Assembly: GCA_903825285.1 (NCBI GenBank)
Contig: CAIJZY010000043.1
Location: 1 to 62,558, forward strand
Length of the DNA: 62,558 bases
Direction: 5' to 3'
Source of the DNA: an uncultured Opitutia bacterium
Lineage (GTDB): Bacteria; Verrucomicrobiota; Verrucomicrobiia; Opitutales; Opitutaceae
The position numbers were made by a program, and so were the translations under genes. The notes below the pieces were generated by a model. That model had not been told where the DNA came from. It did not search any database and saw only the letters and a program-made list of their open reading frames with translations. Below are positions 47,004-48,350 of the stretch, one piece after another. Numbering within the stretch: position 1 is the first letter of the stretch; every line of letters begins with the position of its first letter.

Positions 47004-47074
47004 TTGTAGGGCGGGGTCGCTGACCCCGCCTTAGAATCAAAGCAAAGGCGGGGTCAGGCGACCCCGCCCTACAA
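47004..47074. repeat. GGCGGGGTC palindromic element
   Basis: The arms 47004-47032 and 47045-47074 are near-perfect complements; the right arm only has one extra C. Each arm starts TTGTAGGGCGGGGTCGC and holds its own smaller GGCGGGGTC/GACCCCGCC dyad. The loop is 12 bases. It follows the pseudouridine synthase stop by 10 bases and may also end that transcript. The form is that of a REP-like intergenic element. Confidence 0.8.
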
Positions 47075-47136
47075 TCGGGCACCGACCTGCACACGGAGCA
47101 TTGACATCGGCAGGTGGGACCGGCACCCATCGCGAC

Positions 47137-47223
47137 GTGATTTCCGCCGGTTATTATTTCTTCGGTTTTGGTTTCTGGGCCTACTTTACCCGGAAACTCA
47201 CCGGCGGCTGTCGCGAAACCTGA
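47137..47223 (+). CDS. Aromatic-rich leader peptide upstream of DAHP synthase
   Basis: A 28-codon frame from GTG at 47137 to TGA at 47221-47223. Residues 5-17 read GYYFFGFGFWAYF: nine aromatic residues (Tyr, Phe, Trp) in twelve codons. The gene it precedes makes the first precursor of exactly these amino acids. No good ribosome site is seen before the GTG. A TTG at 47101 in the same frame would extend it by 12 codons, and a consensus -35 hexamer TTGACA begins at that same position. The peptide's value is as a ribosome-stall sensor and not as a product. Confidence 0.8.
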   Translation: MISAGYYFFGFGFWAYFTRKLTGGCRET

Positions 47224-47275
47224 ACCCAGGCCAATTTTCGCCCCCTCAGCCGCCCACTCCCGGGCGGCTTTTTTA
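47144..47275 (+). promoter_or_regulatory. Transcription attenuator (1:2, 2:3, 3:4 pairings)
   Basis: Segment 1 is CCGCCGGT (47144-47151) and pairs perfectly with ACCGGCGG (47200-47207). Segment 2 also contains GGCGGCTG (47203-47210), which pairs perfectly with CAGCCGCC (47247-47254) in segment 3. Segment 3 alternatively pairs with GGGCGGCT (47262-47269) as a terminator. The aromatic codons (47152-47187) lie directly behind segment 1 and the leader stop (47221) lies between segments 2 and 3. A stall on aromatic codons would free segment 2 for the antiterminator, whereas a ribosome at the stop would cover segment 2 and allow termination. Confidence 0.8.
47248..47275 (+). terminator. Attenuator terminator before DAHP synthase
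   Basis: An 8-bp perfect stem AGCCGCCC with GGGCGGCT, a 6-base loop and a TTTTTTATT tail. It ends about 23 bases before the ATG of the DAHP synthase gene, which is typical for a leader terminator and not for a terminator of the distant upstream gene. Confidence 0.88.
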
Positions 47276-47297
47276 TTAGCCTCCACCCAGACCCGCC

Positions 47298-48350
47298 ATG
47301 ATCCTCCCCAAGACCAACCGTCTCACGCCCGAACAGCTCGCCGAGATCACCGCCATCGTCGGCGAGTTCGGCTGCAAGATTCAGCCCATCGTCGGCGCGG
47401 TTCGCACCATCTACGCCATCGTGGGCGACGAGCGCGACGATCTCATGATCAACCGGCTCGAGGGCCTGGAGTACGTGGACCGCATCGACCGGATCCAGTC
47501 GCCGTTCAAGCTGATGGACAAGCGCTCCGACCTCGCCACCGGCCGGCTCACGCTCGGCGGCGTCACGCTCGGGCAGGATCTCTTCGTCATCGCGGGCCAA
47601 TGCACGATCGACCCGAAGAACCCGAATTATTTCTACGAGACGGCGCAGGCGGTGAAGGAGGCCGGCGCCCAGATGCTCCGCGGCGGCGTGTGGAAGCCCC
47701 GCACCAACCCCTACACATTCCAGGGCGACACCAAGTCCCTCGACATCCTCATGGAGGCCTCCCGCCGCACCGGCCTGCCGGTGGACACCGAGGTCATGGA
47801 GGAGGAGCACATCAAGCTGGCGCTCGACGCCGGCGTGACGCTCCTGCAGGTCGGCGCGCGCAACGCGCTCAACTATTCGCTGCTCCGCGCCATCGGCCGC
47901 GCCGTCGCCACGCGCACCGACCGGGCCGTGCTGCTCAAGCGCAGCCTGCACATGGGCGCGCTCAACGAGTTCATCTCCGCCGCGGAGTACATCGCCGCCT
48001 TCGGCAACCCGAACATCGTCCTGTGCCCCCGCGGTACGAGTCCCACGCTCGACGGCTACCGGAACCATCCCGACGAGAGCATCACGCCCTTGCTCAAGGA
48101 AAAGACCTGGGCGGCGGTTGTCGTGGATCCCTCGCACTCGGTCGGCAAGGCCTCGTATGTCCCGGCCTGCTCCCTCGCCGCCATCGCCTACGGCGCGGAC
48201 GGCCTCTGCATCGAGGCGCATGTGAGCCCCAGCCACGGCATCGGCGACGACCCCAAGCAGGCCGTCACGCCCGAGGTGCTGAAGGAGATCATCACGCAGT
48301 CCCGCCAGCTCTGGGCCATCCGTCACGCCGGCAAGCTCGGGCACGGATAA
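47298..48350 (+). CDS. aroF: 3-Deoxy-7-phosphoheptulonate (DAHP) synthase, type I-beta with FL domain
   Basis: First step of the shikimate pathway (350 aa). Residues 1 to about 70 form a ferredoxin-like regulatory domain (AVRTIYAIVGDERDDL, EGLEYVDRIDRIQSPFKL), which in related enzymes confers Phe/Tyr feedback. The TIM barrel has KPRTNPYTFQG, the metal-binding DTEVMEEEHIKLA, GARNALNY, VLLKRSL and VVDPSHSVGK. The usual AGPCSVE-type loop reads AGQCTID, a change of the Pro and Glu that deserves notice. Control appears double: attenuation through the aromatic leader and allostery through the FL domain. Confidence 0.93.
   Translation: MILPKTNRLTPEQLAEITAIVGEFGCKIQPIVGAVRTIYAIVGDERDDLMINRLEGLEYVDRIDRIQSPFKLMDKRSDLATGRLTLGGVTLGQDLFVIAGQCTIDPKNPNYFYETAQAVKEAGAQMLRGGVWKPRTNPYTFQGDTKSLDILMEASRRTGLPVDTEVMEEEHIKLALDAGVTLLQVGARNALNYSLLRAIGRAVATRTDRAVLLKRSLHMGALNEFISAAEYIAAFGNPNIVLCPRGTSPTLDGYRNHPDESITPLLKEKTWAAVVVDPSHSVGKASYVPACSLAAIAYGADGLCIEAHVSPSHGIGDDPKQAVTPEVLKEIITQSRQLWAIRHAGKLGHG

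Follow-up and report, generated by a model that had tools for sequence, protein, structure and literature searches.

A putative ribosome-mediated attenuator, probably with a leaderless start, ahead of a DAHP synthase gene in the Opitutaceae

Could an uncultured member of the Opitutaceae couple transcription of a DAHP synthase gene to the supply of charged aromatic tRNAs by means of a short leader peptide? The question is raised by a locus within a 62,558-nt stretch of DNA (contig CAIJZY010000043.1, analysed whole and hereafter called the window), in which an open reading frame crowded with aromatic codons is followed by an intrinsic terminator and then by the gene:

47137 to 47223, + strand: leader peptide ORF, with GTG start at 47137, 28 codons and TGA stop at 47221-47223
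47144 to 47151, + strand: segment 1 (CCGCCGGT), able to pair with 47200-47207 and variable in relatives
47152 to 47187, + strand: putative sensing codons Y6, Y7, F8, F9, F11, F13, W14, Y16 and F17, read from the sequence; in the folding calculation, a stall at any codon as far as 19 leaves segment 3 with a pairing probability of at least 0.75
47170 to 47198, + strand: hairpin inside the leader ORF (47170-47179 with 47189-47198), present in the minimum-energy fold
47200 to 47210, + strand: segment 2, of which 47200-47207 can pair with segment 1 and 47203-47210 with segment 3
47213 to 47218, + strand: 5' side (GCGAAA) of a distal antiterminator helix, pairing with 47236-47241
47236 to 47241, + strand: 3' side (TTTCGC) of the same helix, pairing with 47213-47218
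47247 to 47255, + strand: segment 3, both the 5' arm of the terminator and the 3' arm of the antiterminator
47248 to 47275, + strand: intrinsic terminator hairpin (arms 47248-47255 and 47262-47269) and T-run
47298 to 48350, + strand: the putatively regulated gene, encoding a type I-beta DAHP synthase whose N-terminal part is a ferredoxin-like domain

The encoded enzyme scores above the Pfam cut-offs for PF00793 and PF18152, its best PDB matches are the DAHP synthases 1rzm and 1vr6, and the NCBIfam DAHP synthase models match it strongly, yet below their curated cut-offs. The match to PF18152, the ferredoxin-like domain, bears out a preliminary description of this DNA in which an allosteric domain of the FL type had been recognised; DAHP synthase may be feedback-inhibited here and hence under double control. 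By eye, no Shine-Dalgarno sequence is evident at 47284-47297, before the ATG of the gene, and the same holds for many orthologues.

The leader ORF translates as (V/M)ISAGYYFFGFGFWAYFTRKLTGGCRET, and both its length of 28 codons and the aromatic run at residues 5-17 were found as and where the preliminary description had placed them. Nine of 12 consecutive codons are aromatic, where the window's own amino-acid frequencies, taken from its 36 long ORFs, lead one to expect about 1e-4 such stretches in the window; the run is beyond chance, and the observation is correct. All three 8-bp pairings of that description are likewise present: the 1:2 helix (47144-47151, CCGCCGGT, with 47200-47207, ACCGGCGG), the 2:3 helix (47203-47210, GGCGGCTG, with 47247-47254, CAGCCGCC) and the terminator, whose arms (47248-47255, AGCCGCCC, with 47262-47269, GGGCGGCT) enclose a loop of 6 and are followed by the T-run. 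The antiterminator as first drawn stood in its 2:3 core and not in its extent, since the distal helix between 47213-47218 and 47236-47241 makes it longer; this helix, the hairpin within the ORF and the promoter described below are additions to that first account.

The minimum-energy fold of 47110-47280 (-68.2 kcal/mol, z = -3.74) contains the 1:2 helix, the in-ORF hairpin and the terminator, and none of 200 dinucleotide shuffles was equally stable. The complementary triple GGCGGCT...AGCCGCC...GGCGGCT in such spacing has a single match in the bacterium's own genome, at the window locus, with no match to the reversed control; over 61 genomes the same triple gave 13 matches, 9 of them at the DAHP synthase leader locus, and the reversed control also gave 13, so that the triple alone is not significant.

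We consider it very likely that these elements together form a ribosome-mediated transcription attenuator of the trp/phe type that controls DAHP synthase transcription. That was the core of the preliminary description, and it is firmly upheld by conservation, by the comparison of terminator and 2:3 helix with shuffled sequence and by where the aromatic codons stand, as detailed below. Sequence, conservation and ribosome-position-dependent folding are computed results; transcription, translation and the response to tRNA we infer. RNA polymerase would start at or next to the leader GTG, and a ribosome would enter on the leaderless 5' end of the transcript and follow the polymerase. When charged tRNA is scarce, the ribosome would stall at the Tyr and Phe codons (47152-47187) and leave segment 2 free to pair with segment 3 (47203-47210 with 47247-47254), reinforced by the pairing of 47213-47218 with 47236-47241; segment 3 being thus held, no terminator would form and the DAHP synthase gene would be transcribed. 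Upon read-through to the stop codon (47221) the ribosome would cover segment 2 and segment 3 would pair with segment 4, and the transcript, about 139 nt long, would end near 47275.

If such a switch operates, it may be expected to recur ahead of orthologous genes. A DAHP synthase orthologue is found in 103 of 120 genomes of the family; when 113 genomes of the class were searched for the enzyme at E<=1e-60, 10 had it, every one of them in the window's family, so that the comparison of orthologous upstream DNA is confined to the family. We examined the DNA upstream of 102 loci (L005-L106) and of 48 further distinct loci out of 80 from named records; three regions (L029, L090 and L107) were too short, and of the 147 usable ones 36, the window included, carry an aromatic leader and 111 do not. 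Because the search, which took the most aromatic stretch of each region, initially passed over one leader (L147), the figure of 36 is a lower bound, and a 37th leader (L204), detected by covariance model, stands outside the 36-leader counts. The uniform richness of the leaders in Phe and Tyr is partly a product of selection, since it was by aromatic content that they were recognised. The named relatives of the locus belong to the Opitutaceae or Opitutae within the Verrucomicrobiota, and leaders occur in many genera; among the bearers is the cultivated Cephaloticoccus primus CAG34 (L169).

In the nearest relative (L107, 94% enzyme identity) the contig ends at the leader's end, and what it retains, as read by eye, is the stop codon, the TTTTCGC element and a terminator with a paired change from A-U to G-C. 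At a sister locus with a 90% identical enzyme (L108), neither TTGACA nor leader nor terminator was seen by eye between the RluA-like gene and the DAHP synthase gene. A lack of conservation in close relatives, which the preliminary description had named as an observation that would speak against an attenuator, is thus encountered at this sister locus and not overall, given the many genera with a leader and the part kept in L107. The switch is evidently dispensable, because L108 and 111 of the 147 regions in all are without it. On a tree of 119 enzymes (a quick search with SH-aLRT support) the leader label needs 10 changes, as against 30.5 for shuffled labels, the former number holding for a labelling in which L204 counts as a locus without leader despite having one; the leader is clustered on this tree and appears to have been lost or gained several times, the tree being silent on which.

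Conservation of the individual structures is uneven. A terminator is present at 36/36 leader loci, whereas among 720 shuffled regions 172 had any terminator and none had one as good as observed, and the longest 2:3 helix reaches at least 6 pairs (G-U allowed) in 32/36 leaders versus 247 of 1800 shuffled leader ends (14%). The distal antiterminator helix, of the GC(G/A)AA type, was read by eye in 20/36 leaders, one of them with 4 bp, in paired forms that include GCGAAA:TTTCGC, GCGAAT:ATTCGC and GCAAA:TTTGC. Covariation counts were made on 25 of the 36 leaders, leaving out three missed by the text pattern (L007, L008, L044), two near-copies (L075, L081) and six divergent sequences (L045, L054, L057, L077, L079, L080). 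In these 25 aligned leaders the 2:3 helix gave no covariation signal above shuffles, and 7 of the 8 terminator pairs never vary; segment 2 and the terminator arms hardly vary at all, as three-way complementarity would impose, and therefore no covariation is to be had from these helices. In the hairpin within the ORF 7 of 10 pairs are changed on both sides and 72.6% of cells are paired, and the covariation score of this hairpin plus terminator (0.131) was reached by 2 of 500 shuffles, the best slid version scoring 0.108. We regard the covariation of the in-ORF hairpin as only moderate, because a slide by +2 columns exceeds both the pairs changed on both sides (8 versus 7) and the further pair types (19 versus 18), and because the further pair types of hairpin plus terminator were reached in 137 of 500 shuffles; such shuffle controls do not remove the relatedness of the sequences. 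The RNA of the ORF is stabler than its synonymous-codon shuffles (p<=0.05) in 18/36 leaders, and from codon 8 to the end in 6/36. The weakest part of the attenuator is the 1:2 pairing, which is 8 bp long and perfect in the window and 4-9 bp long in varying register in relatives. The preliminary description had looked to related genomes for conserved aromatic codons with compensating changes in the stems, and of this the codons do recur, while terminator and 2:3 helix yield no covariation and the 1:2 helix varies.

With a leader this structured, and with no evident Shine-Dalgarno sequence before the DAHP synthase gene by eye, one may ask whether translational control or a ligand-binding RNA (a riboswitch, a T-box or a protein-bound leader) is at work and the ORF secondary. 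This is very unlikely: a search of the locus against Rfam returned 15 matches at E up to 10, of which none reached its gathering score and none was Trp_leader, Phe_leader, a T-box or an amino-acid riboswitch, and what closes the switch is an intrinsic terminator, its hairpin keeping clear of the start region of the gene. Among those matches, microRNA models (the best, on an upstream palindrome) fell below their gathering scores and an RNAI match overlapping the leader had 17.7 bits against a gathering score of 47; both were taken as chance.

On the attenuator reading, the fate of segment 3 should follow the ribosome. Each RNA, cut off where segment 3 ends, was folded with a ribosome placed at every codon in turn, assuming 13 nt from the first base of the A-site codon to the leading edge and counting the pairing of segment 3 with any partner. 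Ribosomes stalled at aromatic codons left segment 3 paired with a median probability of 0.78, and ribosomes at the stop codon with one of 0.15; in the window this probability was 0.85-0.88 through Thr18 and fell to 0.75 at Arg19, 0.37 at Lys20 and 0.02 at Leu21. Across the 36 leaders the permissive zone of this folding calculation holds 273 of 274 aromatic codons as against 369 of 649 others, and in 33/36 the zone ends 1-3 codons after the last aromatic one; with edges of 11 or 16 nt, 274/274 and 273/274 aromatic codons fall within it. The choice between terminator and antiterminator is, in this model, dependent on ribosome position. When the ribosome is left out altogether, segment 3 remains largely paired at equilibrium (median 0.73; 0.86 in the window), so that a classical default-off 1:2 state would have to rely on kinetics.

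A predicted promoter precedes the leader at close and nearly constant distance, and consists of two elements:

47101 to 47106, + strand: putative -35 box TTGACA of the leader promoter, found in 35/36 leaders
47124 to 47130, + strand: -10-like element CACCCAT, non-canonical, exactly 17 nt after TTGACA

TTGACA was found in 34/35 leaders and additionally in L147, L080 being the one without it, and nearly all leader start codons had been assigned before it was noticed. From TTGACA to the start codon there are 35-41 nt (36 nt in 16 leaders, 37 in 12, 38 in 5, and 35 and 41 in one each); as a control, 17 of the 111 loci whose regions have no leader show TTGACA no more than 260 nt from the gene, and by eye most of these hexamers straddle the RluA-like stop codon. 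Column counts over 34 leaders (L080 and L147 left out) give, for CACnnnT, C in 34/34, A in 30/34 and T at the seventh position in 27/34. In the bacterium's own genome TTGACA-N17-CACNNNT occurs at two sites, the window leader and a site ahead of rpmH (L293, C41:49079-49108), and the latter suggests that this lineage may use CACnnnT as a -10 element. We also weighed whether the CAC element belongs to a sigma-54 promoter and set this aside on grounds of spacing.

The gene directly upstream encodes an RluA-family-like pseudouridine synthase, its match falling short of the curated cut-off of the model. In many of the relatives that have no leader this gene nearly abuts the DAHP synthase gene, an arrangement in which the terminator might merely end transcription of that upstream gene and the aromatic ORF be a coincidence. 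We find that reading scarcely credible, since TTGACA intervenes between RluA-like gene and leader with hardly any change in spacing, ORF and terminator co-occur, and aromatic codons lie almost only in the permissive zone.

Returning to the attenuator, from the geometry of sigma-70 promoters transcription would begin at the leader GTG or ATG or no more than about 2 nt away. This spacing leaves no room for a Shine-Dalgarno site before the leader, and, being consistent in 35/36 leaders, indicates that the leader mRNA is probably leaderless. A precedent is the trpL leader RNA of Sinorhizobium meliloti, which, according to excerpts of PMC7298713, starts with the ATG of its leader ORF; the two would share an RNA that begins at the leader start codon, here deduced from promoter spacing only, and differ in that trpL reads Trp for trpE(G) and the Opitutaceae leader precedes a DAHP synthase gene.

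Which amino acids would be sensed? The leaders typically take the form (V/M)NRFAAYYFSFGFWGYFTRK..GGCREN and exceed the window background 6.7-fold in Phe and 4.6-fold in Tyr. Codons for Phe and Tyr occur in 36/36 leaders, and Trp codons in 21/36 (7.3 expected by chance; 2.6-fold over the window background), the position of the window's Trp being TGG, CGG (Arg) or something else in relatives. Because Phe and Tyr are universal and Trp is present in 21/36 at a variable position, we read the leader as a Phe/Tyr sensor: Phe and Tyr are the likely signals, and Trp is a possible one. The preliminary description had proposed joint reading of Tyr, Phe and Trp; its Phe and Tyr hold in every leader, and its Trp does not, with a codon in only 21/36. 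That the charging of all three is sensed together, as one signal for the common pathway, is still conceivable and rather doubtful. In its favour, W14 lies inside the window's aromatic run, Trp codons are enriched as just given, and mixed amino-acid sensing is known elsewhere, at the ilvGMEDA attenuator of E. coli. Against it, a Trp codon is missing from 15/36 leaders, the W14 position reads CGG (Arg) in many relatives and also pairs in the in-ORF hairpin, and the AroR leader of Corynebacterium glutamicum (Phe-Tyr-Phe) responds to Phe limitation, Tyr availability having no effect, in the excerpted text of PMC11802643. As C. glutamicum AroR answers to Phe and not to Tyr, specificity is unsafe to read from codons alone.

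How, then, does the candidate relate to known attenuators? Those of trp, pheA and pheST in E. coli each respond to a single amino acid and have a leader start from a Shine-Dalgarno site, and the aroR-aroF attenuator of C. glutamicum was reportedly the subject of Neshat et al. 2014. Excerpts of PMC11802643 describe the E. coli systems as comprising leader peptide, antiterminator and terminator, all of which recur here in predicted form; unlike them, the window locus is matched by no Rfam model of such leaders. In C. glutamicum a leader with Phe and Tyr codons lies ahead of a DAHP synthase gene and ribosome stalling enhances transcription (excerpts of PMC11802643, PMC7356990 and PMC4046766). The likeness, drawn by description only, lies in a Phe/Tyr leader peptide before a DAHP synthase gene, whose transcription is raised by stalling in C. 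glutamicum; the differences are the phylum and the codons, Phe-Tyr-Phe there and nine aromatic codons here. Candidate trp attenuators of Actinobacteria have a complementary triple, gGCC-rGCy-GGCC, common to antiterminator and terminator (PMC1262725, as excerpted), and share with the window a conserved triple, here GGCGGCT-AGCCGCC-GGCGGCT, which differs in motif, gene and phylum. Attenuation of DAHP synthase is thus already known from C. glutamicum, and the mechanism proposed here is ordinary ribosome-mediated attenuation. A search of the literature on attenuation or leader peptides together with Opitut- or Verrucomicrobi-, with most subscription papers outside its scope, found no attenuator described; in the excerpts seen, mentions of the phylum alongside such terms concern ermB, EF-P and a secretion signal. 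The candidate is therefore well supported, lies in a phylum where our search turned up no described attenuator, and probably has a leaderless start.

A covariance model (R1), built from the same 25 leader sequences, delimits the reach of the element. With stricter filters, R1 matched at E<1e-10 in the window's family only, among 387 genomes of the phylum, and in the bacterium's own genome the next match after the window locus had E = 0.09; the attenuator element is patchy in occurrence, being absent from the sister locus L108, and its strong matches are in the Opitutaceae only. Twenty weak matches (4 in the bacterium's own genome and 16 found across the phylum) were inspected by eye, of which 15 showed no aromatic leader and five (L208, L223, L224, L226 and L227), in the same family, are leaders ahead of an ilvD-like gene, rich in Ile, Val and Leu, such as MTSSLKLSLHLFTALIIAVVILLTPSNGRLSHN. 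The downstream gene was identified as dihydroxy-acid dehydratase (ilvD) by NCBIfam at L208 and by eye at the other four. These leaders share the same kind of segment 2 and terminator with the DAHP synthase leader, and are a candidate second amino-acid attenuator in the Opitutaceae. One further locus upstream of ilvD (L236) is a pattern match only, and the own genome has an ilvD-like locus of its own (L246).

A bolder reading, which we think unlikely, would have a leaderless attenuator whose promoter is locked to the leader start codon, with ribosomes loading on the 5' end, one peptide integrating Tyr, Phe and Trp charging for the common aromatic pathway, and a cassette of this kind serving the family again, with a branched-chain leader, before ilvD; the RNA of about 139 nt and its hydrophobic peptide could also act in trans, as peTrpL does. 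On the more restrained reading set out above, the Verrucomicrobiota would be added to the groups in which sequence evidence supports an amino-acid attenuator. Some leaders contain Trp and others do not, and the leader itself is present in some close relatives and missing from others; these contrasts form a natural series from which to learn which tRNA is decisive and what lies behind the frequent absence of the switch. The probable leaderless start would furnish a simple model, open to test, of how ribosomes load in attenuation.

Elsewhere in the same genome, the 300 bases upstream of two AroFGH-type DAHP synthase genes (L001, L002) and of a KDO8P synthase gene (L003) contain no aromatic leader by eye. 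Positions 47006-47076, just 5' of the leader promoter, form a long and nearly perfect inverted repeat (GTAGGGCGGGGTC...), and a palindrome resembling it follows another terminator in the genome (L190); the repeat is probably a dispersed REP-like element.
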